Assembly: GCF_021729015.1 (NCBI RefSeq)
Contig: NZ_JAJQQZ010000002.1
Location: 434,001-498,000, forward strand
Direction: 5' to 3'
Length of the DNA stretch: 64,000 bases
Origin: Halobacterium rubrum
GTDB lineage: Archaea; Halobacteriota; Halobacteria; Halobacteriales; Halobacteriaceae
Position numbers and translations under genes: made by a program. Below the pieces are notes generated by a model. The model saw only the letters and a program-made list of their open reading frames with translations. It did no database searches and was not told where the DNA came from. Shown here piece by piece: positions 7,495 to 36,948 of the stretch (positions within the stretch are counted from its first letter, which is position 1; every line of letters begins with the position of its first letter).

Positions 7495-7520
7495 TCTCTG
7501 TGACTAATAGAACAAGAACC

Positions 7521-7528
7521 AATTAGAA
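7521..7528 (-). promoter_or_regulatory. Possible TATA-like element of the Argonaute gene
   Basis: The minus strand reads TTCTAATT 27-34 bases before the Argonaute ATG, within the 86-base gap after the ATPase gene. It could give an independent leaderless transcript in addition to read-through from the nuclease-ATPase genes. Weak match. Confidence 0.3.
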
Positions 7529-7580
7529 GTTTCGGGGGACTTAGATTCGAGGAGTGGTTGTATCGTTCTCTGATAAGTGG

Positions 7581-9938: not shown

Positions 9939-9939
9939 A

Positions 9940-19154: not shown

Positions 19155-20901
19155 CGCTTGCACCCAAATCAAAGCCCTCGAACACACCGCTGTTGAACTC
19201 TTCCAGTTTATCCGCGAGGTCGCGCTGCTCCTGAAGGTCGACAGCCATGTCGTCGAAGTCGTTCTCGAGGTCGACTTCGGAACCCGCGTTCACAAGTCGC
19301 TCGAAGATCTCGTCTTCGAAGCTCGTGCCAGATTCCTCAAGCCGGCTGAGAATGGAGCTCAGTTCGCCCACGCTTTGTTGGAACAGATCGATCTTGTGGT
19401 AGAGACGCTCCAGAACGTATTCCTCCACAGTATCGTTCAACGCCATATTGAAGATGTACACGCTTCGCTTCTGACCAATCCGGTGTATGCGGCCGATGCG
19501 TTGTTCGACACGCATCGGGTTCCAGGGGAGGTCGTAGTTCACCATGATATTGCAGAACTGGAGATTCCGCCCTTCACTCATAGCGTCTGTAGAGACGAGC
19601 ACTCCACCTTCCGCCTCGAAGTTCTCGACGATGTCTTCTTTCTCCTGGCTGCTGTGGCCACCGTGGAAGGAGTGTACTGTATAGCCTTCGGCCGCGAGCC
19701 TGTCTAGCACCTGTCGTTGAGTCGCCCTGAACTGCGTGAATGCGATAACCCTCCCTTTCTCGACGTTTTCTCGTGCTTCCTCGACGATATCGAGAAGGCG
19801 CTCTTGTTTCGTGATAGTATCAATGTCATCGATCAGGTCCATGATCGATTCTAACTCGTCTGCGTGGGTGAGCTCCGATTGCTCGTCGAGACGTTTCCCA
19901 ATGGTTACTTCGAGGGCTGCAGGACTGCTGACGACCTCCTTCTGGAGAAGCATCAACACCAGCTTCTGGCCCTGATCCTGGCTGTAGGCGCCTTTAACGT
20001 AGTCGGATACTGCGTCGTACAGTTCACGTTCCTTCGGTGACGGATCGAACTTCCGGGTGTCGATAATGCGCTCGGTGAAATCAATATCTGTGTCGGCCCG
20101 CCGGTTCCGGATCATCACCTTGTTCAGGCGGTCCTGAAGCTCATCCCGGTTAACGAGCGTCTCCTGATTGCTGTTCACGAAGTACTGATGGAAGACGTCA
20201 CGAGTTCCGAAGAGACCGGGACGGAGTAATGAGACGACGTTGTAGAGGTCAGTGAGCTCGTTTTGAATCGGAGTTGCGGTGAGGAAGAACGCGTAGTTGT
20301 AGGAGAGTCGGTCAATCAAATCGTACCGGTCTGTTTCCTCGTTTTTGACGTAGTGAGCTTCGTCCAGAACAAGAACATCCCAGTCACGATTGAGCACCGT
20401 CGCACGATGCCGGTCGCTTTTCGCTGTGTCGATGCTCGCGATGATGTAGTCGTGGGAGTCGAAGCCCTCGAACTCGTCATCGTAGTTGCAGACGAAATTG
20501 AGGCCGAACTTCTCCAGCAGTTCAGCCTGCCACTGCTTGGCAAGCTGTGCAGGTGTGAGGATAAGAACCGAGTCGTCAGTCTCACGGAAGTGCATCTCCT
20601 TGAGAATCATACCGACCTCGATCGTCTTCCCCAGGCCGACCTCGTCGGCAAGCAGGGCTTTCCCATCCATCTCGAAGAGCGCGCGATACGCTGTATCGAC
20701 CTGATGCTCGAGCATCTTCACCGACTCTTCGTCAAGCTGCTTCAGCGACCTGAGTTCAGAGTCTGGCTGTCCGGCCTGAAGACGAACTGCTTGTACCGTC
20801 TGTATATGATCTTCCCCACCATCGGAATCCCCTAACGAGTCGAGAAGCTCGTCATTGTCCTCGTGAGTGACCTCGACGTCAACGAGGTCGTAATCGCTCA
20901 T
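19147..20901 (-). CDS. SNF2/HepA-type helicase
   Basis: A 584-residue superfamily 2 translocase. It has Walker A DEVGLGKT (86-93), motif Ia LTPAQLAKQW, DEAH (180-183), motif III LTATPIQN, and a helicase C domain ending in RIGRIHRIGQKRSVYIF. It lacks large accessory domains, so it is shorter than RapA. It would translocate on duplex DNA with ATP and displace bound proteins. The promoter region faces that of the membrane protein at 21197. SNF2 helicases of this type were noted next to COG1483 (DUF499) and COG1743 (DUF1156) genes in predicted defence loci, and both partners are present here. Confidence 0.9.
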   Translation of the reverse strand: MSDYDLVDVEVTHEDNDELLDSLGDSDGGEDHIQTVQAVRLQAGQPDSELRSLKQLDEESVKMLEHQVDTAYRALFEMDGKALLADEVGLGKTIEVGMILKEMHFRETDDSVLILTPAQLAKQWQAELLEKFGLNFVCNYDDEFEGFDSHDYIIASIDTAKSDRHRATVLNRDWDVLVLDEAHYVKNEETDRYDLIDRLSYNYAFFLTATPIQNELTDLYNVVSLLRPGLFGTRDVFHQYFVNSNQETLVNRDELQDRLNKVMIRNRRADTDIDFTERIIDTRKFDPSPKERELYDAVSDYVKGAYSQDQGQKLVLMLLQKEVVSSPAALEVTIGKRLDEQSELTHADELESIMDLIDDIDTITKQERLLDIVEEARENVEKGRVIAFTQFRATQRQVLDRLAAEGYTVHSFHGGHSSQEKEDIVENFEAEGGVLVSTDAMSEGRNLQFCNIMVNYDLPWNPMRVEQRIGRIHRIGQKRSVYIFNMALNDTVEEYVLERLYHKIDLFQQSVGELSSILSRLEESGTSFEDEIFERLVNAGSEVDLENDFDDMAVDLQEQRDLADKLEEFNSGVFEGFDLGASDD

Positions 20902-22014: not shown

Positions 22015-25000
22015 ATGGCAGAAACTGATGCCTTGTCCCAGACGCTCACAGACACGGTCACCCTGAGCCGTGAACTTCGAGAGGAGGGACAGATAGACGG
22101 GCAAGTAAAACTCTACAACGTCGACGACGACGAGGAGTTCGAGTCTGACGCCGACCTCTTCTTCGACCGGACGCTGATGACCCAGGGGCTGCGGGAAGCA
22201 CTGTCGATTCTGCGGGATTCGCTAACCGGCGACGACCCACGTGGGACACACATTCTCTACGGACCGTACGGCAGTGGAAAGTCCCACCAGATGGTGGCGC
22301 TGTACCACTGCTTCGACGACCCGGCCGCGGCCGGTACCTGGGCAAGTGACTCTATTGAGGGCTTCGAGAGTTCACTGCCTAGCGACGCGACTCCAATCAC
22401 TGTCGCGATGCAGAACGAGCAGTACGAGTATCTCTGGGAGCCATTCTTCGAAGCTCTGAACTTCGACCCGGGGACGTACGAGTCGGGAGGTTATCCCGAC
22501 ATGCAGACGATTCAGGACGCCGTAGGCGACGAAACGGTCGCATTCTTCGTCGACGAACTCGAGGACTGGTTCGACACCCTCCAGGGTGACCGAAAGAGCG
22601 CGAACAAGGCGTTCCTCCAGTCATTGCTCGAATCGACGGCCCTCTCGGATCTCGAACTCTACACTATCGTTTCTGTGCTCCGAGAAGGGTCCGAGGTTCA
22701 CGACATTCTCAATCGGGAGCAGGCAATCGAGGTCAACATGAACAATCAGGTGGACAAACGCGAGGTTCTCCGACACCGCCTGATTGACTCAGTGAACGAG
22801 AATGCTGCCCGCGAGATTGTCAACGGGTACTTCGACGCCTACGATCAGTCTGACCACGTCTCTCTCCCCGACAATCTGCTATCAGATATGCACGACCTCT
22901 ACCCGTTCCATCCTGTGCTGCTTGACGCCCTCGAAACCCGATACTATGCCGACGAGGACAACCAGAACACGCGCGGGATGATCTACCTGTTCTCGAAGGT
23001 CCTGCTGCAGATGCAAGACGAGACGGACCTCATCACCCATGGGGACATCGACGCCATCGAGTTCGAGGACGAACTTGCGAAGATCAACTACGAGCGGCTG
23101 AACGCGGCGACGGGTGACATCAAGAGCCGTATCGACACAGACGAGGTCCCGCACGGCCGACGCATCCTGAATACGATTCTCCTCTACTCGCTGAAGCCCA
23201 GTGAGGGCGAGGGTGCAGACGTCTCCGAGATTATCATGGGGGCCTACCAGACGGGCGAGCTCGTCTCCGACGTCGTGCTCAACCTCGAACGGCTCCACGG
23301 CGTCGCGTGGCACCTGCACAAGCTCAACGGGAAGTACGCCATCCGCGACCGGCAGAACCCGAACGCACTTATCCGAAACGCAGCAGTCGACGTCTCCGAA
23401 ACCTCAGCGAAGGCCGAGATAGCGGACTTCATCACCGACATCTTCGGTTCGAACGCGTACCCGGTGGGGTTCCGCACGAACGATATGCGGGACATTCCCG
23501 ACGACCGGGAAGTCAAAGTCATCGTCAAAGACGATCAGTGGACGCAGAAGGAAGTCAAGAAGGTCATCACGAACGATGGACGTGGACGCGAGTGGCGTAA
23601 CACCCTCGTCTTCGTCCAGCCGTCCGGTGACAAGGCCATCGAGTCCGGCACGCGGTACATCGACAAAGCGCGGTACATCGAGGGGGCACGGCAGGTGCTC
23701 GCCGACGAGTCTCTCGACGAGGAGATCCGCGACTCGATCCAGGGGATGAAAAATCAGGAGAAAAGCGAGCTCCAGGAGGAGCTCCAACTCCTCTACGGGG
23801 AGGTGCTCGATGGCGAGGACCTGCTCAACGAGTGGGAGGACATGACCCCGATGGACCTGGACGTCTATGTTGTGGACGACGCGGAGCTGAACGCATCAAA
23901 CATCGCTGGCTCCGCTGCGGCCGACCCATTCGACCTCCAGTCGCACGTCTGGGATATTGCCGAGGACCTGCTCGACCGTCGGGGTGAAATCTCCGTCGAA
24001 GACCTCTATGAGGCGTTCTTGCGGGATCCGGATCTGCCTATCCCCGGCAGCTCCAACGACGTGCTGAACGCGACTGTGAAGGCACTGAGCGACAAACCAG
24101 TGCTCGCTCGCGACTCCGGTGGGTTCCGTGACGACCTCGCCGGCAGTTCCCTGGATACAGTACTTGTCCTGCAGGATGACGTGGACCTCTGGGGTGTCGA
24201 CGACGTCGAACAGGAGATTCGCAAGCGCTTCGGTAGCGGCACGACGGCTCTCGACATCGGGGACTTCGAACTGGGGCTAGTTCAGGACGGTGAGGTATGG
24301 ATTGACGGTGACAGTCACGACGTCGTAATGCGCGCTATCGGTCGGTTGAGTAGCGAGGACCAGTACGTCATCGTCCGCGGCAACGAGATTCTCGAGAAGC
24401 CGCAATCCGACGCTGCATTGCGGGACGTGGGCGGTGCGACAGTCATCGGTGCATCCGACCTGGTAGACCGCATCGAGGGGCAAATTGGCGAGGAAGGATA
24501 CGCGAACCTCGACACCATCATCGGCGACGTACGCGCAGACGAAGCCGTGTTCCTGCCGCCGGATGAAACCGAATCCGTCGCCCGGGAAGCCGTCAACGAG
24601 TTCCTCGTGGACGATTACGTGCTCGAAGCCGGCGGTCGATACCTGGGTTCCCTCGGCGACCGAGAGCCGACGACTGTAAAGATCGTGCCGACGGTGCCGG
24701 ATCGGATCGGTGACCAGATTCTGGAGTACATCGAGGACCTTGAGGCCGGCGACCAGTTCACCGTGAACAAGGTCTCCGAGCGGTTCGACAGCAGCGTCGG
24801 CGAGTACATGGTGCGGACGTTCCTCCTCGAGAACATCGGGAAGGACGAGGAACCCGAGTACGTCGTCAACACGACCGGGTCGGACAAGGCCTCCGACTGG
24901 GTCCCCGGGTATCCGTTCCGAAAGGCCGACACTGACGCCGAGACGTGGCGCTTCGAGTACAACGGCGACGACGTTGCGGCGATGCGCAAGAAGTGGCGGT

Positions 25001-25221
25001 CGAACCACCAGACAGGAAGCGTCGAGTACGGCGACGTCACGTTCATGCTACCCGACAAGGAAGGCGTCCCGGGCGCGCTACAGGGAACTGCCGACGTCGA
25101 ACGTACCCAGGTCAGCGTGACGTTGCGCTCCGAGCAGGACTACACGAAAGTGCAAGACCTGTTCGAGCGGATGCCCGAGGAAGCGTCGAGTCTGAAGGTC
25201 GAGATCAGCTTCCAGAAGTAA
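22015..25221 (+). CDS. DUF499-family (COG1483) AAA+ ATPase
   Basis: A 1068-residue P-loop ATPase. Walker A is GPYGSGKSH (from residue 83); Walker B is FFVDELEDW near 180. The long C-terminal half includes a winged-helix-like part (RRGEISVEDLYEAFL) and ends VEISFQK. This is the organisation of the DUF499 family found beside DUF1156 methyltransferases in predicted anti-phage loci. The DUF1156 gene here lies 5 kb downstream, separated by a Fic gene and four paralogues. The final ~200 bases are repeated in decayed form at 26625-26828. It probably acts as a motor or loader that couples recognition to the methyltransferase or an effector; the biochemical role is unproven. Confidence 0.82.
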   Translation: MAETDALSQTLTDTVTLSRELREEGQIDGQVKLYNVDDDEEFESDADLFFDRTLMTQGLREALSILRDSLTGDDPRGTHILYGPYGSGKSHQMVALYHCFDDPAAAGTWASDSIEGFESSLPSDATPITVAMQNEQYEYLWEPFFEALNFDPGTYESGGYPDMQTIQDAVGDETVAFFVDELEDWFDTLQGDRKSANKAFLQSLLESTALSDLELYTIVSVLREGSEVHDILNREQAIEVNMNNQVDKREVLRHRLIDSVNENAAREIVNGYFDAYDQSDHVSLPDNLLSDMHDLYPFHPVLLDALETRYYADEDNQNTRGMIYLFSKVLLQMQDETDLITHGDIDAIEFEDELAKINYERLNAATGDIKSRIDTDEVPHGRRILNTILLYSLKPSEGEGADVSEIIMGAYQTGELVSDVVLNLERLHGVAWHLHKLNGKYAIRDRQNPNALIRNAAVDVSETSAKAEIADFITDIFGSNAYPVGFRTNDMRDIPDDREVKVIVKDDQWTQKEVKKVITNDGRGREWRNTLVFVQPSGDKAIESGTRYIDKARYIEGARQVLADESLDEEIRDSIQGMKNQEKSELQEELQLLYGEVLDGEDLLNEWEDMTPMDLDVYVVDDAELNASNIAGSAAADPFDLQSHVWDIAEDLLDRRGEISVEDLYEAFLRDPDLPIPGSSNDVLNATVKALSDKPVLARDSGGFRDDLAGSSLDTVLVLQDDVDLWGVDDVEQEIRKRFGSGTTALDIGDFELGLVQDGEVWIDGDSHDVVMRAIGRLSSEDQYVIVRGNEILEKPQSDAALRDVGGATVIGASDLVDRIEGQIGEEGYANLDTIIGDVRADEAVFLPPDETESVAREAVNEFLVDDYVLEAGGRYLGSLGDREPTTVKIVPTVPDRIGDQILEYIEDLEAGDQFTVNKVSERFDSSVGEYMVRTFLLENIGKDEEPEYVVNTTGSDKASDWVPGYPFRKADTDAETWRFEYNGDDVAAMRKKWRSNHQTGSVEYGDVTFMLPDKEGVPGALQGTADVERTQVSVTLRSEQDYTKVQDLFERMPEEASSLKVEISFQK

Positions 25222-25224
25222 CAG

Positions 25225-26385
25225 TCACCGATACTGGAGTTCCTCGACCGGCTTCTGGATAATCTCGAAGACTTCTCTCGCACGGAACACTCGGTTCCGA
25301 CGCTGGCCGGTGATCTCCTCTAAGACATCATCCTCCTGGAGGCGACTTACCGCATTGTTCGCTGTTCTATACGTCATTCCGAGCAGTTCCTGTGCTTCAT
25401 TGACAGTGAGATACGGTTTCGTGAAGATTTCCATGGAAAGTTGTGAGACCGAGTTCGCTTCGTCCTGGTATCGGTCCCGGTATTCGTCCCGTAGGTCGAG
25501 CAGCTCTGACGCCCTTCCGAACGCTTCTTTGGCCTGCTGAGAGATCCCCCTCAGGAAGAACGTCAACCATTCTTCCCAGGCATTGTCTCGGCTGACGGCC
25601 AATAACCGATCAGTGTACTCGTCGCGATTTCGGTTAAAGTAGGAGCTCGGATAGAGATACGACTCTGGCAGAAGCTCGTCATCGCACATCATCAACATGA
25701 TGAGTAAGCGACCCATCCGACCGTTTCCATCCCGGAAGGGGTGAATCGTCTCAAACTGATAATGGACCAGTCCGATATCAATCAGCGGCTGGTAACTTCC
25801 CCCGGTTCGGATGTACGTCTCCAAGTTCTGCATCGCGTACGGAACTGTCGAAGACGGCGGTGGAACGAAGCGAGCACCATCACCGCGACCACCAATGTAC
25901 ACTTGCGTATCCCGGAATTCACCTGGGCGTTTTTCCCCGCCTCGAACGCCGGTCATCAGCGTGTCGTGTAGTCGGCGGACGAGGTCGTTATCGATTCCCC
26001 CCTCCAGTTCATCGATACCCTGGAAAACCGCTCGCACGTAGTTGTGGACTTCCTTCAGTTCATTCCGGGACGCCCCCGATGCTCCGGATTTCCGGCCGGC
26101 TTCGTACTCATACACGTCCGAGAGCGTAACCCGGGTTCCCTCGATCTCCGAGGATACAACCGCTTCCTTGTAGATGAACGGGCTGATGAGCATCCCGGGG
26201 TTCTCGACTCGTCGTCCGACACCGCTGAGCTGACCGACGTTCGTCGTTGCTTCCGCAAAGACGTCAAGGAGTTCCCCGGACAAGCTAACGTCTGGCGGAA
26301 GTGGAGCCGGATCGAACGCGAGATCACCGTCCGAATTCACCAGTTCTCCGGCCATCCCCCCGGACTCGAACCGTTCTACGTCCAT
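25225..26385 (-). CDS. Fic-domain AMP-transferase with winged helix
   Basis: A 386-residue Fic/DOC enzyme expected to transfer AMP to a protein Ser/Thr/Tyr. The active-site box HPFRDGNGR begins at His215, and the self-inhibitory S-x-x-x-E-G helix is present as SSEIEG (78-83), so this is a class II, N-terminally regulated Fic. A winged helix follows near residues 315-385 (TVNEAQELLGMTYRTANNAV). The ATG at 26385 is chosen because it matches the start of the related Fic at 53562; a longer frame begins with GTG at 26460. It runs opposite to the DUF499 gene, with stops four bases apart, and sits between that gene and a decayed copy of its 3' end, which suggests insertion. Confidence 0.88.
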   Translation of the reverse strand: MDVERFESGGMAGELVNSDGDLAFDPAPLPPDVSLSGELLDVFAEATTNVGQLSGVGRRVENPGMLISPFIYKEAVVSSEIEGTRVTLSDVYEYEAGRKSGASGASRNELKEVHNYVRAVFQGIDELEGGIDNDLVRRLHDTLMTGVRGGEKRPGEFRDTQVYIGGRGDGARFVPPPSSTVPYAMQNLETYIRTGGSYQPLIDIGLVHYQFETIHPFRDGNGRMGRLLIMLMMCDDELLPESYLYPSSYFNRNRDEYTDRLLAVSRDNAWEEWLTFFLRGISQQAKEAFGRASELLDLRDEYRDRYQDEANSVSQLSMEIFTKPYLTVNEAQELLGMTYRTANNAVSRLQEDDVLEEITGQRRNRVFRAREVFEIIQKPVEELQYR

Positions 26386-26624
26386 TTGGGGGCGATAGCC
26401 GTTGCCGCATATTGAATCTATCCCCGGTTTCGGTATAATATAGGCCGGTTCCAGAGACACATATAGTACTTTCTGTATGGAAGAGGCCCCGGATCAAACC
26501 CCGATATCATAGCCATATCACACGCCTATTAGACAGAGAGAGCATCGTCTATTGGTATAATAAACCCATCTCTCGGAAGACATAGTGAATCAGATCGCGG
26601 ACTAGTACAATACGCGCCCCGGAA
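26386..26624. other. Intergenic DNA upstream of the Fic gene
   Basis: No gene is seen. The part nearest the Fic gene is AT-rich and includes GGTATAATATAGG at 26430-26442, whose minus-strand TATATTATA could be its promoter with a leader of some 20 bases. The rest separates the Fic gene from the decayed DUF499 tail. Confidence 0.4.
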
Positions 26625-26828
26625 AGAAGGATGTTGAGTACGGTGGCGCACGTTCCGCTGCCAGACAAGGAGAAGTCCGTAGCGCTCTTCAGGGAACCAC
26701 AGACGTCAAACGAACCTGGCGAGCGTGACGCTGCGGTCTGGCCAGGATTACACGAAAGTCTAGGACTGGTTCGAGCGGGTGTCTGAGAGGGTATTGAGTC
26801 TGAAGTTGAGATAAGCTTCCAGAAGTAG
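26625..26828 (+). pseudogene. Decayed copy of the DUF499 ATPase 3' end
   Basis: This segment aligns with 25020-25220: GTTGAGTACGG matches GTCGAGTACGG, GAGCGTGACGCTGCG matches CAGCGTGACGTTGCG, GGATTACACGAAAG matches GGACTACACGAAAG, and the ends AGCTTCCAGAAGTA are identical. Reading frame is lost through substitutions, small indels and stops. It carries only the last ~65 codons. It is either the old tail of a DUF499 gene displaced when the Fic gene arrived with a replacement 3' end, or a remnant of a second gene copy. Confidence 0.8.
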
Positions 26829-26853
26829 TCTCCGAGAGAAATTGCAGCCACAA

Positions 26854-27717
26854 CTACTCGTCGCTTTTTTCGGGCTCCCCGCCATCGATATCGTCTAAAC
26901 TCGCCTGTCCGTCGCCATTACCTCCGTCTGTCCCATCATCGACCTCGTCCTCATGATCATCGTCGAAATCCCCTGCATAATGTTCTGCTAAGTACTTTCC
27001 TACGGTAGAAAGCGCAAATTGACCGTTACCAGCTCGGTAATAGGGAACAAGTTCGTCCCAATCGTAGATTGGACTCTCCAGCCAATTCTTCGCATTCTTC
27101 CGATTGGCGTCGTCGTCCAGTTCCGGAAGGACATCTTCTGGTGATGCGCTCCCTTCCCGAGCGACCACCAGAAACGGGGTGTACTTTTTCGAATCTACCA
27201 GGCGTTCCCAGCGTTTCTTGACCCTGTCAGTCCGGTCAAGCCGATCCTCACTGAGAGTCAACAGTGTATGTTCCATATCCAACTGTTCTATATCACCTAT
27301 ATCGTTTAGGTCGTCTGTATTTTCAATGCGGTTCTGGTCGAGAATCAACGAGTCCTCTTCCTTCCCGTACAAGGCGTGTGTAAGTCCATTCAGAACCGTC
27401 GGTGAAAGCCACGTACTATCGAATTCGAAGTCTTCGGCAGCAGCTTTCAGTAAGTCTTCCCGAAGTTCATCGACCTGTTGAGCTGACTGTTTGAGTGCAT
27501 CGAGCTCGTCCTCCACATCGAGGATTTTCCGGTCCACTCGTTGAACGATTCCGCTGTCCTCCCCATGTTGTTCCACGAACTTCTCACGGCGCTGCCGTAG
27601 TTCCGACAAGCGGTCCTCCAGTACGGCTCGACGCTCTTCGTCAATTTCGTGGTTCAATGCGTCTAGGTATTTCTTTGCGAGTGGCTCGGGGCCAGATTTA
27701 GTTTCATTCACTGCCAT
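26854..27717 (-). CDS. Paralogue 4 of a coiled-coil/winged-helix array
   Basis: A 287-residue acidic protein and the last of four tandem related genes. It shares their layout: a short opening helix with LAKKYLDALN, a coiled coil to about residue 95, a conserved middle block (FEFDSTWLSPTVLNGLTHALYG), and a C-terminal winged-helix-like domain with SPEDVLPEL and QFALSTVGKYLAEHY, followed by an acidic Gly-rich tail. No catalytic residues or membrane segments are evident. It overlaps the gene before it by 14 bases. The function is unknown; the array probably makes hetero-oligomers, perhaps specificity or adaptor subunits for the DUF499/DUF1156 proteins. Confidence 0.82.
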   Translation of the reverse strand: MAVNETKSGPEPLAKKYLDALNHEIDEERRAVLEDRLSELRQRREKFVEQHGEDSGIVQRVDRKILDVEDELDALKQSAQQVDELREDLLKAAAEDFEFDSTWLSPTVLNGLTHALYGKEEDSLILDQNRIENTDDLNDIGDIEQLDMEHTLLTLSEDRLDRTDRVKKRWERLVDSKKYTPFLVVAREGSASPEDVLPELDDDANRKNAKNWLESPIYDWDELVPYYRAGNGQFALSTVGKYLAEHYAGDFDDDHEDEVDDGTDGGNGDGQASLDDIDGGEPEKSDE

Positions 27718-28534
27718 CACCCGTTTTTTCTTCGCTTATGTCATCAAAGCTGAATTGCTTGTCTTCCTCGACCTCTTCTTCAGGGTCTTCAGTTTCTGGT
27801 TCCGCTTCGACCGTCTCTAGACCAAATTCTCTCGACGTATACTCACCGAGAAGCGAGAAGGTCCACTCTCCGTCCTCCCGATAATAGGGATGATACTCGG
27901 AGCTCGTAATCACGTAACGCAGGTTTGCTCCGGGATCATCTGGACCATCCTCGCCAAGTTTTTCGCTGATGCCCCCCGCACTAAGCGGCGAATCGGAACG
28001 GGCGATCGTTCGGGTGATCGGGAGAACCTTGTCCGTGCTCATCTTCTCCCAGACCTCGTCAATCGTTTCGTTCGAATCTACGGCGTGTTCGGCGACCACG
28101 TGGACGTTCTTTGCGATTGTCACCATGTCCTTCTTGGACAGACTGTCCGTATCCTCCGGAATTGCGTGGTCGCCGATGAGAATACGGTCCCGTCGCTCAC
28201 TGAGGAGTGCATGTGTCAAGGCCGAGATGACTGTTTCATCAATCCAGTCACCTTGTGGTGCGAACTCCTTACTGGTGCGGGTGAGTAACTCAGTACGTAA
28301 TTCTGATCGGCGTTCCCCTTGTTCCGAGATTTTCTCCAACCGTTCTTGGAATTCATCCCGCTCCTCAACCGCCATCTCGTGCATCGGGGTTCCCTCCTCG
28401 AACTCATCGGCTTGTTCCTGCCAGTATTCGAGCTCCTCCTGAACCTCGTCTGTGCGGGAAGCCGCGTCACCGTTACATGCGTCGAGATACTCTTCCGCCA
28501 ACTCAACGACGTCCTCCGGGAATTCCTCACTCAT
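27704..28534 (-). CDS. Paralogue 3 of a coiled-coil/winged-helix array
   Basis: A 276-residue acidic protein, third in the array. Opening LAEEYLDACNGD corresponds to LAKKYLDALN in paralogue 4 and LAEDYLSALE in paralogue 2. Then come a coiled coil, the middle block QGDWIDETVISALTHALLS, and a winged-helix-like end (LSAGGISEKLGED, then WTFSLLGEYTSREF) with an acidic tail ending near FSFDDI, close to LDDIDGG of paralogue 4. The ATG at 28534 overlaps the preceding stop by eight bases (ATGAGTGA). The divergence between copies is large, so the duplications are old or the copies have been under diversifying selection. Confidence 0.82.
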   Translation of the reverse strand: MSEEFPEDVVELAEEYLDACNGDAASRTDEVQEELEYWQEQADEFEEGTPMHEMAVEERDEFQERLEKISEQGERRSELRTELLTRTSKEFAPQGDWIDETVISALTHALLSERRDRILIGDHAIPEDTDSLSKKDMVTIAKNVHVVAEHAVDSNETIDEVWEKMSTDKVLPITRTIARSDSPLSAGGISEKLGEDGPDDPGANLRYVITSSEYHPYYREDGEWTFSLLGEYTSREFGLETVEAEPETEDPEEEVEEDKQFSFDDISEEKTGDGSE

Positions 28535-29369
28535 CAGTATCACTCCCCTGTCCTGCGGCCGTCTGGTTCAGTGTCCGCTGGCTCTCGGTCCTTTCTTCAG
28601 AGGCTCCGACTGGTCCTTTCGCATCGTCTGCTTCTACCTCCGCGTATTCTTTTGCGAGGTATTTTCCCGTGGTAGATAGCCGGTAGGTTCCGCTTTCGCG
28701 GTGGTACGGATTGATATCCAACGTAGTCGCATTTTTTAACCGGTTACGCACAGTCTCCCGTTTGAGATCATCGTCATCAACACGCCCTAGCACATCATCT
28801 GGTGTTGCTTCCCCAAGTTTGGCGACGGTCCTGAATGGATGTTCCTTCGTGGTTCCGGCAATGGAGCCCCAGACATCGGCCACGTCTTCAGAACCCCCCA
28901 ACTTATCCATAGCTAACTTGCGAACGACATCGATGATGTCGAAGCGAACGAGGTCATCTAGATTCTCAGCTTCATCAGGGCCGGTTATCTCGGTCTCTTC
29001 CACCACTAGCACTGAATCCCGTTCTCCGATAAGCGCTTGATTCAGAGCCTCGATCACTTCGGGTTTGAGCCATTCCTCGGATAGCGTGAATCCGGTAGCT
29101 GCTTCCAGAACCTGCTCTCTGAGTTCTTCGGGGACTCTCTGTGCCTCCTCAAGCTGCTTGACCCGCTCTTCGGCCTCCTGTAGACGCTCGCCCAACTCCT
29201 GAGTCGCGGGGTCGGACTCGCCGTAGTCGGACTTAAACCGCTCGTACCGTTCTCGAACCTCCGATAAGCGCTCTTTCGCCCCCTCTAGTTCCTCCTCATT
29301 GACCTCACTCTCCAGCGCCGAGAGGTAGTCCTCGGCAAGCTGTCCGATTGGCCGTTCGTCCTCCGTCAT
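28527..29369 (-). CDS. Paralogue 2 of a coiled-coil/winged-helix array
   Basis: A 280-residue acidic protein, second in the array. It opens with IGQLAEDYLSALESE, has a heptad-rich coiled coil to about residue 95, the middle block LSEEWLKPEVIEALNQALIG, and a winged-helix-like domain (ATPDDVLGRVDDDD, then YRLSTTGKYLAKEYAE). The ending of that domain is nearly the same as in paralogue 4 (STVGKYLAEHYAG), making these two the closest pair. Its ATG overlaps the preceding stop by four bases (ATGA). The low-complexity tail is rich in Ser, Thr, Gly and Glu. Confidence 0.82.
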   Translation of the reverse strand: MTEDERPIGQLAEDYLSALESEVNEEELEGAKERLSEVRERYERFKSDYGESDPATQELGERLQEAEERVKQLEEAQRVPEELREQVLEAATGFTLSEEWLKPEVIEALNQALIGERDSVLVVEETEITGPDEAENLDDLVRFDIIDVVRKLAMDKLGGSEDVADVWGSIAGTTKEHPFRTVAKLGEATPDDVLGRVDDDDLKRETVRNRLKNATTLDINPYHRESGTYRLSTTGKYLAKEYAEVEADDAKGPVGASEERTESQRTLNQTAAGQGSDTDE

Positions 29370-30172
29370 GCTTCCACCTCCTCAGGGAGGTCAGGAGCCC
29401 CGTAGTGCTCGCAATAGGCCTCAATAACTCGTTCGCCCATGTCGGTCAACGAGAACTGGGAGTCGGACTTCTGAAGATACGGATCGTTATCAAGGACGTA
29501 GTAGAGGCTGCCGCGAAGCTCGCCACTCTCGACGCCAATCTGATTCTCAAGTTCGCCTTTGGTGAGCGATTCACCAGACTGTTGAAGCACATATAGCGTC
29601 CTGATAATCTTCTCGTCCCGATCGTGGAGGTCTTCCACGTACTGCTCGACATCAACCATCATGTTGGCTTTTGACCGCAGTCCTTCGATCCGGTCCATCG
29701 CCAGATCCATCGCCTCATCAACATCTGCCGTTTCGACCCGAACCGCGTCGGTGTCGATACTTACAGGGTCTCCACTCAGATCTTCCTCCAACGCCATTTC
29801 GATCGCCTCAATGACCTCCTGAGGAATCTCGTCGGAGTACGGGAACTCAACCCCATTCTCTGTAGCGTCAATCGTCTCGTTTAATGGGAATTTGACGTCA
29901 ACTAACGACTTCTGTAGCTCCTCTCGCGTCGTTTCCAGTTCGTCCTCTGATTCAGACAGACTCGACCGCAGCTCGTCAATTTTCTGAGTCTTACCAGAGT
30001 TATCCTGGTCGTCTGCGACGCTAGAGAAGAATTCGCGCGCTTTCTTTTCCGTTTCTTCAGACCCGTTGCCGAACATCTCTGACTGAAGATTCTGCAGGCG
30101 CTCCCGTTTTTTATGAACGTCCTCCTGCAGATCGATCAGTCTCTTTGCCCGCTCAATTATTTCAGCTTCCAT
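29366..30172 (-). CDS. Paralogue 1 of a coiled-coil/winged-helix array
   Basis: A 268-residue protein and the promoter-proximal, most divergent member of the array. It has the coiled coil (about 10-100), the middle helix EIPQEVIEAIEMALEED in the same position as in the others, and a winged-helix domain (SLTKGELENQIGVESGELRG, then FSLTDMGERVIEAY). The start at 30172 is supported by a TATA-like element 26-35 bases upstream; the longer frame to 30226 would lie across that element. The Leu-rich YVEDLHDRDEKIIRTLYVLQQSGE segment before the winged helix looks like a typical MarR/PadR-like entry helix. Confidence 0.8.
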   Translation of the reverse strand: MEAEIIERAKRLIDLQEDVHKKRERLQNLQSEMFGNGSEETEKKAREFFSSVADDQDNSGKTQKIDELRSSLSESEDELETTREELQKSLVDVKFPLNETIDATENGVEFPYSDEIPQEVIEAIEMALEEDLSGDPVSIDTDAVRVETADVDEAMDLAMDRIEGLRSKANMMVDVEQYVEDLHDRDEKIIRTLYVLQQSGESLTKGELENQIGVESGELRGSLYYVLDNDPYLQKSDSQFSLTDMGERVIEAYCEHYGAPDLPEEVEA

Positions 30173-30197
30173 ACCCACACTACACATGCGGAAGTAC

Positions 30198-30207
30198 AAA
30201 TAATTAT
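30198..30207 (-). promoter_or_regulatory. TATA-like element of the four-paralogue operon
   Basis: The minus strand reads ATAATTATTT, 26-35 bases before the ATG at 30172, the standard spacing for a leaderless transcript. It sets the start of the first paralogue and indicates that all four overlapping genes form one operon divergent from the methyltransferase gene. Confidence 0.6.
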
Positions 30208-30423
30208 GCTCTGCATCCATTCCCATGCTGTTCCATGCTCTATACGAAGAGAATATGCGGGGGGGCGGTGGGAGTGAGTAATGGACAGTTACTTTCTACG
30301 AAACTGACGCCACGTCGCTCAACGAATCTTCAGTTGTAGCATCAGTCCAAGAATCGGTTGATGCGCATCAATGAGAGCGCACACTTATGAGGCTCCCTCG
30401 TAATCCCTGCTACATACTGAATA

Positions 30424-33150
30424 ATGTCTGAGCAATCTGACCCTCCACAGGGACGGCAGGAGCGAACAGAACTCCCCATCGAACGCGGGTTCCCAATTGA
30501 ATTGGTGAACGATATCGGTGAAAAGGAAGGACGAGCTAAGCAGTGGTATCGCCCCATTTATACTATGCACAAGTGGTGGGCTCGCCGTCTTGGTTGTGTG
30601 TTCCGGGCGGTTTCTCTATATTCGCTTTTGGATAATGAATCAGAAGTCCAAGTTTCCGATCCTTCACAGGAAAATGAAAAGCTAGATAGTTTCTCCTCTT
30701 CAGCCGAGACGATCCATTCGCTTGTTGAATCTGTTTCTTTGGATGACCCGGTGGATCTGTGGGAACTCTACCCGAAGGACGTGAATGTAGAGGGAAAACG
30801 TGTTTTAGATCCATTTATGGGAGGGGGGACCTCCCTAGTAGAGGCTTCTAGATTTGGTGCCGAAGTTGTCGGGAATGACCTCAATCCTGTTGCTTGGTTT
30901 ATTACTAAAAAGGAGTTGGAGGCAGGTCAAGCTAATGTTGAAAAGCTAGAGCAAGAGTTTGGGAAAATCCAGGACCGAGTAGCTAGTAAGATAACACAAT
31001 ATTACGAGACTACCTGCCCGAATGGCGGTCACCGTGCGGATGTTATGTACTACTTATGGGCAAAAGAGTTGGATTGTACGTCCTGTGGGGAGATGGTCCC
31101 TCTGTTTAACGACTTCAGGGTAGGGAAGGGCCGATACGATAATAAGGACAAATACCACGTCTACTGTCCCGAATGTGAATCTGTGATTTTGGTTGATGAC
31201 TGGCGAGAGGAATGCACTTGTGACTGTGGATATACTTTTGTACCGGAAGAAGGGACGGTATCTGATGGAAAATATTCTTGCCGGTCCTGTGGTCAGCGAT
31301 ATGGAATTATTGACAGAATTGGCGAAAGAGGTGGGTTTGACAAACGTCTGTATGCCATCGAATATTACTGCCCCACCTGCGACAATGAAGGAAGAGACAA
31401 AGAGGAAATAAAGTCCTACAAACCAGCGACCGATGATGACCGGGAGCTATACCAAGCTGCTAAAACAGAGTGGGAAAACAGCGAAGACCTTACCAGATAC
31501 GTCCCAGATGGACAGATTCCGGTGGGGATTAAAACCGACAGTTCTGCTTTTGATGGAGGAATTGGTGGCGGATTTAACGTCCTGAAGAAGGGTTATGAGA
31601 AGTGGGAGGATATGTTTAACAGCCGTCAGCTACTCTGCTTAAGCTCCCTCCTGAAGGAAATAGATCAAGTTGAAGACAAGTCGGCGCGTGAGTACCTCCT
31701 TCTGGCATTCACCGAGTCCCTCAATTATAACAGTATGATGATTGGATATAACGCAGGTCGAAACCATTCTGTTAATATGTTTAATACTAATTCGTTTGAT
31801 CCGCCTCACAAGCCTGCGGAAGGTAACGTATGGGGTACTGAGTACGGTATCGGAACATTCCAATCCACTTGGAAGATGATTATTCGGGGGTGTGAATATG
31901 GTCGGTCCCCAACAGAGCGCTATATGAAATATCCTAAAGAGGATGGAAAGCCTGAGTTCATTACAGACCCGTCCTTGTCTGAACCAGATACCGTGGAGAC
32001 AGGCGAATTCAAGACGTCAATTGGTCGCGATTTCACGCTCCATTGCGGGGATATGCGTGATTTAGAAACTGAAGAGCTGTTTGATGCAGTGATAACTGAC
32101 CCACCCTATTATGATAATGTCATATATTCAGAACTATCTAACTATTTTTATGTCTGGCAACGCCTCATACTTCAAGACGAGTATGGTGAATTCGAATCGG
32201 AGCTGACCAATAGCGAGTCCAGTATTGTAGCAAACCCTGCTGAGGGGAAGGGGGCTGAAGAATTTGAGTCGGAGATCAAGCAAGGATTCGCCAATATCAA
32301 AAGATTGTTGAAAGATGATGGTGTGCTATCCTTCACATATCACCATAGTGACTCCGAGTCATGGGGTGAATTGCTGGAAGCATTGTGCGATGTTGGATTT
32401 GAGGTGACTGCTACGTATCCCATTAGCGCAGATCAAGTGAAATTTGGGAACAACGTAATTGGAAAAGCGGTTTCGTTTGATATCTTAGTCGTTGCTCGCC
32501 CTACGGAGGAGACGACTGCGATGAGCTGGGACTCCCTCCGCCGCGAAATATATCGGACTGCCAGACGGACTCGTAGGAGACTTGAAGAAGATCGAAATCT
32601 CTCACAAGGCGATATTGGCGTGATGGAAATGGGTGACTGTTTCCGAGAATATTCCAAGCACCACGGGAAAGTTCAGCGGGATGGTGAAATAATGAGTGCG
32701 AAGGATGTCGTCCAAGAAATCTACGGCATCATCCAGGATGCTAGTGACATTGGTGTTGAAGATGTGTATGTTGATCTGTTGGATACGGACAATCCTTCGT
32801 ACGACGACGTCAATAAGCTTTGTCGCGGAACTAACGCCACGCCCGAGGAGCTGAAGGAGATGCGTCTATACAATCAGGACGACGGCTTCGAACTCGGCAC
32901 CTGGGACAACGAGAAGCGCCAGGCGTACATCCAGGAGCGCGTCAACGGCGACGACGGCGAACACCTCTCGAACCTCGACAAGCTCCAGTTCCTACGCTAC
33001 CGCTACGAGAAGGGCCAATCCGTTCAGAACTACGTCGAGAAGTGGGACGTCAACGATGACCTGCGTGAGCTCGCCGGCCGACTCGCCGACGTGACCGGCG
33101 ACGAAACGTACACGCGAGTGCTCGGAGACCGCGACATCACGAGCTACTGA
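30424..33150 (+). CDS. DUF1156-family (COG1743) adenine-specific DNA methyltransferase with zinc ribbons
   Basis: A 908-residue SAM-dependent N6-adenine methyltransferase. The DUF1156-like N-terminus (FPIELVNDIGEKEGRAKQWYRPIYTMHKWWARR region) precedes the SAM motif LDPFMGGGT (128-136) and NDLNPVAW; the catalytic DPPY is at 559-562. Between them lie several CxxC pairs (CTSCG, YCPEC, CRSCG, YCPTC) that form zinc ribbons. It probably marks host DNA and pairs with the DUF499 ATPase and SNF2 helicase. Base composition changes sharply near 32.82 kb: codons up to about 800 are AT-rich, while the last ~110 are GC-rich, so the gene looks mosaic. It is divergent from the four-paralogue operon. Confidence 0.88.
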   Translation: MSEQSDPPQGRQERTELPIERGFPIELVNDIGEKEGRAKQWYRPIYTMHKWWARRLGCVFRAVSLYSLLDNESEVQVSDPSQENEKLDSFSSSAETIHSLVESVSLDDPVDLWELYPKDVNVEGKRVLDPFMGGGTSLVEASRFGAEVVGNDLNPVAWFITKKELEAGQANVEKLEQEFGKIQDRVASKITQYYETTCPNGGHRADVMYYLWAKELDCTSCGEMVPLFNDFRVGKGRYDNKDKYHVYCPECESVILVDDWREECTCDCGYTFVPEEGTVSDGKYSCRSCGQRYGIIDRIGERGGFDKRLYAIEYYCPTCDNEGRDKEEIKSYKPATDDDRELYQAAKTEWENSEDLTRYVPDGQIPVGIKTDSSAFDGGIGGGFNVLKKGYEKWEDMFNSRQLLCLSSLLKEIDQVEDKSAREYLLLAFTESLNYNSMMIGYNAGRNHSVNMFNTNSFDPPHKPAEGNVWGTEYGIGTFQSTWKMIIRGCEYGRSPTERYMKYPKEDGKPEFITDPSLSEPDTVETGEFKTSIGRDFTLHCGDMRDLETEELFDAVITDPPYYDNVIYSELSNYFYVWQRLILQDEYGEFESELTNSESSIVANPAEGKGAEEFESEIKQGFANIKRLLKDDGVLSFTYHHSDSESWGELLEALCDVGFEVTATYPISADQVKFGNNVIGKAVSFDILVVARPTEETTAMSWDSLRREIYRTARRTRRRLEEDRNLSQGDIGVMEMGDCFREYSKHHGKVQRDGEIMSAKDVVQEIYGIIQDASDIGVEDVYVDLLDTDNPSYDDVNKLCRGTNATPEELKEMRLYNQDDGFELGTWDNEKRQAYIQERVNGDDGEHLSNLDKLQFLRYRYEKGQSVQNYVEKWDVNDDLRELAGRLADVTGDETYTRVLGDRDITSY

Positions 33151-33972: not shown

Positions 33973-35787
33973 CTACGCTTCCGATCCTGCGCTGGACAGC
34001 ATCGACAGCAGGTGCCGTTTGATCCGTTTTCGCCGCTCTGTCACGAACTGGCCGAAGTTTTCTAATTTGTGGTACTCCGGATCCTCAGGGATGAAGTGGC
34101 GCTGATAGAATCCTTCGTTCTGGTTCCGAACCCAGTCTTGGAATGACTCGTCCTGCTTCGTTTCGTTCTCGTTCTCTGTGAGTAGCTGGAGGTTCGCCAG
34201 TTTATCGCGCTCCTCCGTGAACTCGGCAATCTTGCTTTCAGGGAGACCCCGATCTCGAAGGTTCTCTTCTTCCAGTTTCGATGTAGGGAAGATGTGGTCC
34301 TGGTGGTACTGGACACTCCCCCAATCGTTCTCCGGGTAGAGCAGGGTGAGAGCGAGGAAAGTACGCTTACCTCCCTTCTCATTTTCCAAGACGTTTTCGG
34401 CGATTTCCTCGTTAAAGCCGACGACCTTGTTGAGCCCCTCAACCGCTTCGTTGATTTCCTGAAGCGGGAACTGTTCTCCGTCTGCCTTGCTCAGTTCGTC
34501 CCGAATAGTCCTAAGAACCGTGTCAGAATTCCCACTGAGTGTTCCGTTCAGAAGCGTTGTGAGCAGCCACTTCTTCATCGCCTGTTTGGTCTGATGATAC
34601 TCTTCCGCGTTCTGCTGCAGGTGGTCTACTGTCAGCCCGGAATTCTTGAAGTAATACGCAAGTGGGATGACAGCGTTGCGACTTGTGAGCGTATTCTCGT
34701 CAATCCCGAACTGGTTGACTAGTGTTGCAGCAGCCTTGATTGCCGTCCGAATTGACTCCCACTCGTTCTCTATTTTGGAGACGTTTTCTCGGTTGAATTG
34801 TCCAACCCGGTACCGAACTGGGAGGTCGCTGAGCACGAGACAGGACTTGAGGAGGAAATCCTTGTCATAGTTGTTAGTCGAGGGTAGCTGCGTGTTCAGA
34901 TAGTCGACGAAGGACGTCAGCTCCTCCCTCGCATCGTATTTCTCCCAGTTCGCTGTTGCAATCGACAGGAGTAAATCGGACTTCTGGAGCTGGGTTCCGC
35001 CATCATTTGTCCGGATGAAGATATCGAGGACCCTGTCGATGTTCTGTTCCTTTTCCTCGAAATACGTGATGTAGGCTTTGTCGTGAATCGCCCGCCAGAG
35101 TGCCCGGAGATTTCGACCGACGTTTCGTTCACGCTCTCGGTCCAGGTGGTCGGCGTACTGGTCTTTCACCTCGAACACGAGGTCCTCCTGGTCCTCGTTC
35201 TTCGGGTAGTTCAGAATCGCTCCTGCTCGGAACCACAAATCGTCCCCCCGTGTAACTACTCGTTCGTCGTACTGGTCCATCGGCAAGAACGCGAAATCGT
35301 ATCGAGATTGTCGGTCTCCATCTTCAGAGAGCTCCTCTTCCGGATTCGAGGTGATGTTGAGATACAGCCGGGATTTGTTCCAGGCGTCCTCGTTCCGGTA
35401 CCACTTGTAATCCTGTTTGTAGGTGTACGTCCCCTTCAATCCAATGTAGAACGAGGAGAGCCGTTGTTGACCGTCGAGAATCAGCTTGAGGTCTCCAGCA
35501 CCATCGGGAACCACCTCGGAGTTCCGGGACTGAGCGTTCGTGTTGATGTACTTCGTCGTGGTGATGTAGTCCTTGATGAAGCCGTACATCTTGTACTCGT
35601 CCCGGTTCTCGTCGCGAATATCCCAGTAGAGAAACGTACCAATTGGGTAGCCCTGAAGGACCGAATCAAAGAGATCAGTAATTTGATCGCGTTCCCAGAC
35701 GATTTCTCGTTGGATAGCCGGTAGAAGATAATCTTCGTTCTGAATATGGTGAACTGCCTCCGAGATCGTCACGCGCTGATCATACAT
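33973..35787 (-). CDS. GmrSD-like DUF262/DUF1524 modification-dependent endonuclease
   Basis: A 604-residue fusion. The N-terminal DUF262 (ParB/Srx-like) domain has LPAIQREIVW, GYPIGTFLYW and the nucleotide-binding DGQQRL motif (105-110), followed by FIRTNDGGTQL. The C-terminal DUF1524 region has QDHIFP and KLANLQLL with ENENETK, the His-Me-finger nuclease pattern. GmrSD and BrxU-type enzymes with these two domains cut modified (glucosylated or methylated) phage DNA using NTP. Length fits a single-chain GmrSD. The gene stands alone, between DUF429 and a small unknown gene, and is not coupled to a methyltransferase. Confidence 0.87.
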   Translation of the reverse strand: MYDQRVTISEAVHHIQNEDYLLPAIQREIVWERDQITDLFDSVLQGYPIGTFLYWDIRDENRDEYKMYGFIKDYITTTKYINTNAQSRNSEVVPDGAGDLKLILDGQQRLSSFYIGLKGTYTYKQDYKWYRNEDAWNKSRLYLNITSNPEEELSEDGDRQSRYDFAFLPMDQYDERVVTRGDDLWFRAGAILNYPKNEDQEDLVFEVKDQYADHLDRERERNVGRNLRALWRAIHDKAYITYFEEKEQNIDRVLDIFIRTNDGGTQLQKSDLLLSIATANWEKYDAREELTSFVDYLNTQLPSTNNYDKDFLLKSCLVLSDLPVRYRVGQFNRENVSKIENEWESIRTAIKAAATLVNQFGIDENTLTSRNAVIPLAYYFKNSGLTVDHLQQNAEEYHQTKQAMKKWLLTTLLNGTLSGNSDTVLRTIRDELSKADGEQFPLQEINEAVEGLNKVVGFNEEIAENVLENEKGGKRTFLALTLLYPENDWGSVQYHQDHIFPTSKLEEENLRDRGLPESKIAEFTEERDKLANLQLLTENENETKQDESFQDWVRNQNEGFYQRHFIPEDPEYHKLENFGQFVTERRKRIKRHLLSMLSSAGSEA

Positions 35788-35989
35788 GGCTGATAATGTC
35801 TCCGGGGACTCACTAATAGCTTCTTAGCAACCTATAGAGAGAATGCCGCTACAAGCGCTTCATTGGCGAAGTGGTAAACTGAGTTTGAAACTAATTCAGA
35901 GAGGTGGCTTCTAGAGAATGGCGTTACGCAGGAGAGACACCTAGCAGCACATGTTACTTAATGCAGCAGTGGGAAAGATTTGCTAAGAG

Positions 35990-36373
35990 ATGGCAGGACC
36001 AGGCCAAATCCCCGGACGGTACAATATTATTCTCGAAGGGAAGTATGAAGGATTTGATCATCAAATGCCTGTAGAAGAGTTCATTCAACGCCTGAAGGAA
36101 GACAATGTGCCAAACAAGGTTAGCGTGGTCGGACTGGGGCAGGCGTTCACTGATGGGGACCTGATAGACGAGCTCGCCCACGAGATGGATCGCCGAGCAA
36201 ACGATTTGGAATACCAAACGCCGACCGTCCAGTTCGTCGTCGAGGGGTCGTTCCATCGGAGCGGGAAAACGTACGATCTGAGACACGACAATAATCTATA
36301 CCCCTTGCAAGATGTATTCGGTCCACAGCTCGAGCGGAAAGAGGACGGTGACTGGCTCGTCGCGCCGTTCTGA
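35990..36373 (+). CDS. Unrecognised 127-residue protein
   Basis: A small soluble protein with an alternating beta pattern (YNIILEGKY, KVSVVGLG, VQFVVEGSF) and no membrane segment. No family is recognised. It starts with ATG GCA and ends 112 bases before the next small gene on the same strand. It could be a compact alpha/beta fold. No catalytic motif is visible, and its position between GmrSD and McrBC does not prove a role in restriction. Confidence 0.6.
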   Translation: MAGPGQIPGRYNIILEGKYEGFDHQMPVEEFIQRLKEDNVPNKVSVVGLGQAFTDGDLIDELAHEMDRRANDLEYQTPTVQFVVEGSFHRSGKTYDLRHDNNLYPLQDVFGPQLERKEDGDWLVAPF

Positions 36374-36485
36374 GTTTAGAAGAGGCCTGGTTCGGTTTTC
36401 TACAGATATTTCCTTATACCGGTTCGGAGACTCCCAGCCGCGTATAGGTTTATTTAATGATGCGCAATACGCTCTTTACACGCAA

Positions 36486-36929
36486 ATGGCAGACATTCAC
36501 TACGAAACTATTGACAGCGGCGGAGTGTACCTCATCGATGAGATATCACAGCGTTTTCTCGTATACCTGCATCTTCATGGCGGTTCACCCCCTGACGAAG
36601 CGATGAACCCTGTCGGAGTCTCGCAAAAGTCGGAGATACACACGCGTGTGAACGAGAATCTCGGTTCTGAGGCGGCTGGGCTGGTTGAAGAACATGAGTT
36701 CGTCAGAAATACATTAACTGGTGAACAAGACGTCTTCCACTATCGACTAACGGATGATGGAGAATCGTTTGTGTATAATCATAAGGCATCGCTCTCGTTG
36801 CCCGCCGATCTTACGGAGTTAGCAGAGAAAGTAGCAGGGCTTCGTGTTGATCTAGATGATCTCCGGGATATTGGGGATCGAGTTAGAGACCTTGAAGCGC
36901 GGCTTACAGAGTTAGAAGAACAACAGTAG
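36486..36929 (+). CDS. Winged-helix protein with C-terminal coiled coil
   Basis: A 147-residue protein. The first ~95 residues look like a winged helix (FLVYLHLHGGSPPDEAMNP, NENLGSEAAGLVEEHEFV, then a wing with FHYRLTDDGESFVYNH), and the last 50 form a coiled coil with LAEKVAGLRVDLDDLRD and LEARLTELEEQQ, probably a dimerisation element. The start is the ATG at 36486; the extra 58 codons of the longer frame overlap the previous gene and are basic and unlike the rest. It ends 20 bases from the convergent McrC stop. Possibly a regulator of the neighbouring restriction genes. Confidence 0.65.
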   Translation: MADIHYETIDSGGVYLIDEISQRFLVYLHLHGGSPPDEAMNPVGVSQKSEIHTRVNENLGSEAAGLVEEHEFVRNTLTGEQDVFHYRLTDDGESFVYNHKASLSLPADLTELAEKVAGLRVDLDDLRDIGDRVRDLEARLTELEEQQ

Positions 36930-36948
36930 CACGCCTCAAAACACGCAC

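Follow-up and report, generated by a model that had tools for sequence, protein, structure and literature searches.

What are four small, overlapping genes doing between the ATPase and methyltransferase genes of a restriction-type locus, and do they belong to it? The question is raised by a 64,000-nucleotide stretch of Halobacterium rubrum (GCF_021729015.1, contig NZ_JAJQQZ010000002.1, positions 434,001 to 498,000), here called the window, to which coordinates refer unless another locus is named. The four genes, which we call the array, occupy 26854-30172 on the minus strand and are transcribed from P4 (30172) toward P1 (26854). An earlier note had described them as four tandem, overlapping, divergent paralogues of 268 to 287 residues with overlaps of 4 to 14 bases, and the open frames bear this description out. 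On balance, we favor the view that the array is an autonomous, self-regulated, and probably hetero-oligomeric DNA-binding module of Halobacteria, likely with a role in defense. In order of transcription, its genes are:

29366-30172, minus strand: P4, the "head," 268 amino acids, first gene of the array
28527-29369, minus strand: P3, a body, 280 amino acids, overlapping P4 by 4 bases
27704-28534, minus strand: P2, a body, 276 amino acids, overlapping P3 by 8 bases; alternative GTG start at 28543
26854-27717, minus strand: P1, a body, 287 amino acids, overlapping P2 by 14 bases; alternative GTG start at 27720

The overlaps of 4, 8, and 14 bases are those obtained with the preferred starts of the four genes. 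For P4, the start at 30172 is preferred because its orthologues begin at the same place and a conserved promoter box is found 38 bases upstream.

By sequence comparison, P1, P2, and P3 are clearly homologous, and P4 is a more distant relative. When P3 was compared with its own genome, P1 was matched at E=2.6e-36 and P2 at 3.1e-12, while the P3/P1 profile aligned with that of P2/P0 (P0 being a further body found in other genomes) at 100% probability over 274 columns. Along most of the P4 profile, the P3/P1 profile was matched at 95.7% probability, most clearly at the winged-helix end; the match to the P2/P0 profile was weaker. The proteins share an N-terminal helix, a coiled-coil hairpin, a "WLxxxVIxALxxAL" block, a predicted winged helix, and an acidic tail; P4 has long helices and the predicted C-terminal winged helix and is without the acidic tail motif. 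The "LAxxYLxA" opening helix that the earlier note saw in three of the proteins is that of P1, P2, and P3, and the middle block, given there in the form "WLxPxVIxALxxAL," is indeed common to all four, with the P4 version being the most diverged. A model of P1 (predicted local distance difference test [pLDDT] score of 77, predicted template modeling [pTM] score of 0.69), based on seven input sequences, the array's own four and three of QS_9_68_17, features a short helix, an antiparallel coiled-coil hairpin, and a small middle domain, followed by a winged-helix-like helix-helix-helix-strand-strand-helix end and a disordered acidic tail. For P4, the model is confident in the winged-helix part alone and poor elsewhere; leading matches in its fold search were mostly winged helices of the ArsR/MarR/DtxR type, none of them significant. 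The C-terminal winged helix is thus a prediction assigned from the topology of the P1 model, these nonsignificant P4 fold matches, and a weak profile match to the archaeal RPA32 subunit. Of the coiled coil and winged-helix end proposed earlier, both are seen in the P1 model, the latter as a predicted topology. No significant whole-protein match was found in Pfam, NCBIfam, PADLOC, PHROGs, or PDB, in agreement with the earlier remark that the family was not recognizable, and PADLOC gave weak coiled-coil-type matches to large proteins only and called no known anti-phage system.

How widespread is this arrangement? A profile search seeded with all four proteins in 391 genomes of the class Halobacteria detected arrays in five, and family-wide searches added three, bringing the number to eight. 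The window's own family (26 genomes) holds no array besides that of the window, and outside Halobacteria, two weak partial matches were the only ones among 393 genomes of the phylum. Genome contigs scanned with P3 alone gave no match; scanned with the P4 alignment, they gave only QS_9_68_17, which we treat as the same contig as genome G327. Viral contigs (by scans) and plasmids (by tblastn) yielded no array, so we rejected viral or plasmid spread.

All eight arrays start with a single P4-type head gene, followed by one to four bodies: four in genomes G134, G141, and G242, three in the window and in G424, two in G327, and one in G416 and G435. Arrays with the same order occur in genomes of several families. 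In a tree of 30 proteins, 22 of them bodies, the heads form one clade (support, 100/100) with one head per array, and the bodies fall into the lineages P1, P3, and P2/P0. Slots P3, P2, and P1 are orthologous among the window, G134/G141, and G242; orthologues are 62 to 69% identical for P4, 56 to 62% for P3 (in G141 and G242), 54 to 58% for P2, and about 60% for P1. P0, the sister of P2, is present in G134, G141, and G242 and missing from the window; we rejected a lost fifth body there, as no remnant lies between P1 and the next gene, which encodes a SoFic-type protein. The sole body of the minimal arrays in G416 and G435 is nearest to the P1 slot, and the bodies of G424 represent a duplication of their own. 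Because of this placement of slots in the tree, we conclude that bodies, and not heads, were duplicated more than once and then retained. Comparison of the array genes of G134 and G141 gave ratios of nonsynonymous to synonymous substitution rates (dN/dS) of 0.085 to 0.17, indicating purifying selection. Since every array has exactly one head, we infer from these sequences that head and bodies act together. The hetero-oligomer of duplicated subunits suggested in the earlier note therefore gains from the 1:1 slot conservation across families, the single head per array, and the purifying selection; the dedication to a DUF499/DUF1156 system that the note attached to it fares differently, as described below.

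Upstream of the head genes, the words GCATAA, AGCATA, and TAGCAA recur. In the window they take the following form:

30204-30239, minus strand: repeats before the head, with boxes AGCATGG, AGCATGG, and AGCATAA beginning 67, 57, and 38 bases upstream of the start codon of P4

GCATAA is found in six of the seven distinct array promoters. Among 462 upstream regions of the same DNA, which served as controls and from which some arrays had not been removed, the share is 2.8%. Boxes like those of the window are shared by most other arrays and are rare in a set of 456 control upstream regions. The box begins at -38 to -40 relative to the head codon in seven of the eight arrays (38 bases in the window, G134, G141, and G242; 39 in G435; 40 in G327 and G416), and adjacent boxes are direct repeats at intervals of 10 to 41 bases, with about 20 a frequent value. 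Within 1.26 Mb, clusters of three boxes occur solely before arrays (window, G134, G141, G416, and G435). Genome-wide, tandem GCATA pairs are confined to the array in G416 and G435 and are elsewhere no commoner than a reversed-pattern control. Motif expectation maximization with a loose prior overfitted and was replaced by these word counts with controls. In a leave-one-out test, in which the array under test was excluded from the choice of words and the words were scored against 180 AT-rich upstream regions as 6-mers and 5-mers, G134, G242, and G416 scored above every control with both word lengths, whereas the window was reached by one control with 6-mers and by four with 5-mers. The simplest reading of these patterns is that the repeats are a putative operator for the array's own winged helices. 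As a separate observation, G134 and G141 carry further TAGCAA boxes at -142, -229, and -251 of the head gene, toward an XPB-like helicase gene divergent from the array (L033 11891-13678 and L035 11313-13100), and they have a TFB-like gene downstream of the array.

The surroundings of the array in the window are the core of a DUF499-centered system (Hma) related to bacteriophage exclusion (BREX), comprising helicase, ATPase, and methyltransferase:

19147-20901: SNF2 helicase
22015-25221, plus strand: DUF499 ATPase (HmaC-like), one wall of the slot that holds the array; Pfam DUF499 9.9e-11, PADLOC HmaC 1.2e-18
25225-26460, minus strand: SoFic-type Fic protein, downstream of the array; PADLOC SoFic 7.9e-112
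30424-33150, plus strand: DUF1156 adenine methyltransferase (HmaB-like), the other slot wall; Pfam DUF1156 3.4e-7, PADLOC HmaB 2.1e-32

DUF499 is present in 78 of the 391 class genomes, in about 38 of them at 80 to 90% identity, and only the window has an array beside it. G134 has both a DUF499 system and an array, located on separate contigs, and no DUF499 or DUF1156 gene was found in the surrounding DNA examined for the other seven arrays. Across 16 close relatives, the distance from DUF499 to the methyltransferase gene ranges from 1.1 to 5.0 kb, and the contents are unlike those of the window: GmrSD nucleases, a DUF3644 protein (PDC-S19), DitA, an HNH protein with a Dam-type methylase, a PHP-AAA protein (Ppl), an McrB-like ATPase, a DUF6036 nucleotidyltransferase, a transposase-like gene, and a few unknowns, or, in some relatives, short open reading frames only. 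This gap (window 25222-30423; loci L112-L131) is a hypervariable cargo slot with mostly defense-type occupants, of which the array and SoFic are one occupancy. The SoFic gene is absent from the other array loci and is a co-occupant of the slot, not part of the array module. Around the slot, the DUF499 ATPase and SNF2 helicase are near 90% identical across families. The DUF1156 methyltransferase (L112-L125) is 92% identical in G127 (L123) and 62 to 66% identical in most relatives with about 90% identity in DUF499, and because of this difference it seems to have been exchanged independently.

The N-terminal half of the bodies (residues 1 to about 150, without the winged helix) also occurs outside arrays, with a profile probability of 99.6% (hhalign). 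Stand-alone proteins of this kind are encoded before PilB3-like ATPase and PilC-like genes in L040, L041, and L043; T2SSE/T2SSF pairs adjoin them in L040 and L043, and in L041 the pair is deduced from gene sizes. In L043, the N-domain gene overlaps the pilus genes by 4 bases. In three further cases among the 391 genomes (L042, L044, and L045), the domain follows REC-HalX in response regulators, where HalX itself is of unknown function (PMC5847659); this C-terminal domain of the regulators, homologous to the N-terminal half of the bodies, is undescribed. Its recurrence with pilus genes and with REC-HalX suggests that it may be a protein-interaction or signaling domain, which in the arrays is joined to a predicted winged helix.

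At their other end, the bodies carry tails that might resemble the binding box of PCNA-interacting proteins (PIP), an idea we offer as a lead only:

26887-26907, minus strand: PIP-like tail motif QASLDDI of P1, residues 271-277, a lead only

Comparable tail motifs are QFSFDDI in P2 and QRTLNQT in P3, and a loose version is found in the tails of 22 of 22 bodies versus 28 of 203 background open reading frames, the latter including array proteins. In the same genome, FEN1 ends in QTGLDQWT and the Nre protein in QSDLSEFA. Body tails such as DASLDEF and SDLTNF resemble these ends, and the window copies are without the aromatic residue.

Taken together, the anatomy, common descent, fixed order, slot conservation, body-only duplication, cargo-slot position, and array-specific promoter repeats are well supported. 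In the mechanism that we favor, one head and one to four bodies made from overlapping genes would form a hetero-oligomer held together by their helical N-terminal halves, with the winged helices lined up along DNA, and this complex would bind the repeats before its own first gene and so hold its own expression in check. Among our observations, it is the conserved promoter repeats that point to specific DNA binding. In the cell, the complex would most likely serve in defense against, or competition with, foreign DNA by binding it (sensing or silencing), although this role is the least certain part of the mechanism. It is suggested because the other occupants of the slot are mostly defense genes and because some arrays lie near restriction-type or mobile-element genes. 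Neighbors of the arrays include Eco57I/DrmMI-type methylases in G416 and G242, a helicase in G134 and G141, and an integrase in G327. As the array has no enzyme, any nuclease activity or killing would have to be supplied by other proteins. Several observations weigh against this picture. No recognizable defense gene lies near the arrays of G424 and G435, and fold searches of the array proteins gave no significant PDB match. Except in the leave-one-out test, the promoters that yielded the motif also served to test it, and within that test, G424 (reached by seven controls with 6-mers and by one with 5-mers) and G435 (by 7 and 11) were weak with 6-mers, while G327, whose promoter has only the TAGCAA variant, scored zero. 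Moreover, the -38 box shares positions with the promoter core expected of a leaderless archaeal transcript, so that its conservation could partly be that of promoter sequence.

Could the four proteins instead belong to the BREX-related restriction system with DUF499 and DUF1156 (Hma), either as its dedicated subunits or as a set of interchangeable sensors? Their place between the ATPase and methyltransferase genes speaks for it, but it is contradicted by adjacency in just 1 of 78 DUF499 genomes, by seven other arrays without such a system nearby, and by the 16 relatives with unrelated genes or short open reading frames in the slot. We regard this rival as very unlikely, and on the distribution we rejected a dedicated DUF499 subunit. 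The published core also differs: it consists of ATPase, methyltransferase, and helicase, with DUF3780 added in Type-2 and PglZ and iSTAND in Type-3, and the part of the description covered mentions no array-like paralogues (PMC12839542). Although the window shares the three core genes with that system, the array proteins match none of the components published there and are absent from nearly all such loci; compared with HmaA-C, PglZ, iSTAND, and DUF3780, they gave no match of weight in Pfam, PADLOC, or NCBIfam. A structural or motor-associated assembly, such as a pilus-like scaffold, is suggested by the stand-alone N-domain genes before PilB3/PilC3-like genes, yet the array proteins have a predicted winged helix in addition and the neighborhoods of the arrays showed no pilus genes, which makes this reading highly improbable.

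It is somewhat easier to imagine, though still improbable, that the array serves a mobile element in replication or partition, its winged-helix proteins acting on iteron-like direct repeats beside their own gene. In outline, direct repeats in front of a predicted winged-helix gene, often with a spacing of about 20 bases, resemble iterons or centromere sites, and integrases lie near some arrays; however, no ParA-, TubZ-, or replicase-like gene was recognized among the neighbors scanned, and some arrays are located on large contigs (742 kb for the window, 2.4 Mb for G424). To our knowledge, known Rep genes do not show an expansion of this head-and-body kind. Alternatively, the array may be a set of local transcription regulators controlling neighboring cargo genes without a defense activity of its own. 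Candidate targets are the divergent helicase in G134/G141, toward which the additional TAGCAA boxes lie, and the divergent methyltransferase in the window, and some REC-HalX response regulators contain the N-domain of the bodies. Against this, the neighbors vary between arrays, most arrays have no boxes before other genes, and it would be unusual for one promoter to have as many as five regulators, leaving the idea doubtful. A bolder extension of the defense reading, in which an enzyme-free, ordered hetero-oligomer made of a single head and as many as four diverged winged-helix bodies would coat or silence foreign DNA, tuned by body duplication and possibly tethered to the sliding clamp via the PIP-like tails, would amount to a new archaeal immune or conflict system, but we consider this unlikely as well.

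Among known proteins, ArsR/MarR/DtxR-type repressors are likened to the array proteins by the predicted C-terminal winged helix (from nonsignificant fold matches), and the repeats before the array's own gene suggest similar autoregulation. In contrast to these repressors, the N-terminal 170 residues of the array proteins form a predicted coiled-coil hairpin and middle domain without known relatives, and the array has an obligate head, variable bodies, and direct rather than inverted repeats. Iteron-type modules likewise have tandem direct repeats beside a predicted winged-helix gene, as found upstream of most arrays. A few REC-HalX regulators (PMC5847659) share the domain homologous to the N-terminal half of the bodies, whereas Pfam finds no receiver or HalX domain in the array proteins. 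Regulators of the BrxR/CapW type, also encoded in defense loci, may be alike by function only; they are WYL-domain proteins (PMC9122601, PMC9122588), while no WYL domain was found in the array proteins. The module fits no known family or system tested, although its parts (predicted winged helix, coiled coil, and putative operator repeats) are ordinary; this holds for PADLOC as of 2023 and the open-access literature, and an independent description may exist.

The remainder of the window holds further genes of interest. A 400-residue protein with a weak DksA/TraR-type zinc finger match (17985-19187), whose gene overlaps that of the SNF2 helicase, is 46 to 59% identical where the helicase is 85 to 90% identical and is thus evolving much faster. 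Beside the locus lies an AddAB-like pair, a PD-(D/E)XK protein gene followed by a UvrD-type helicase-nuclease gene (12467-17936); a UvrD-type gene is found at the equivalent place in L122, L123, and L131, and about 12 kb away from the array of G416 is a homologue of the PD-(D/E)XK gene, with 79% identity over 365 residues. On the other side, a GmrSD-type (HEC-05) nuclease gene is accompanied by an McrBC pair (33973-39947), and in most of the relatives checked, McrBC is likewise found close to the methyltransferase gene. A PIWI/Argonaute-type gene adjoins an AAA/LmuB-like gene and an unknown gene (5299-10995).

These results define an undescribed gene module with a testable logic, namely a head that comes first, expandable bodies, and promoter repeats of its own. 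They also reveal that a common haloarchaeal DUF499 defense locus contains a hypervariable slot, so that it would be mistaken to read all genes lying between its core genes as parts of the system. The cargo slot is also a place to look for new archaeal defense genes.

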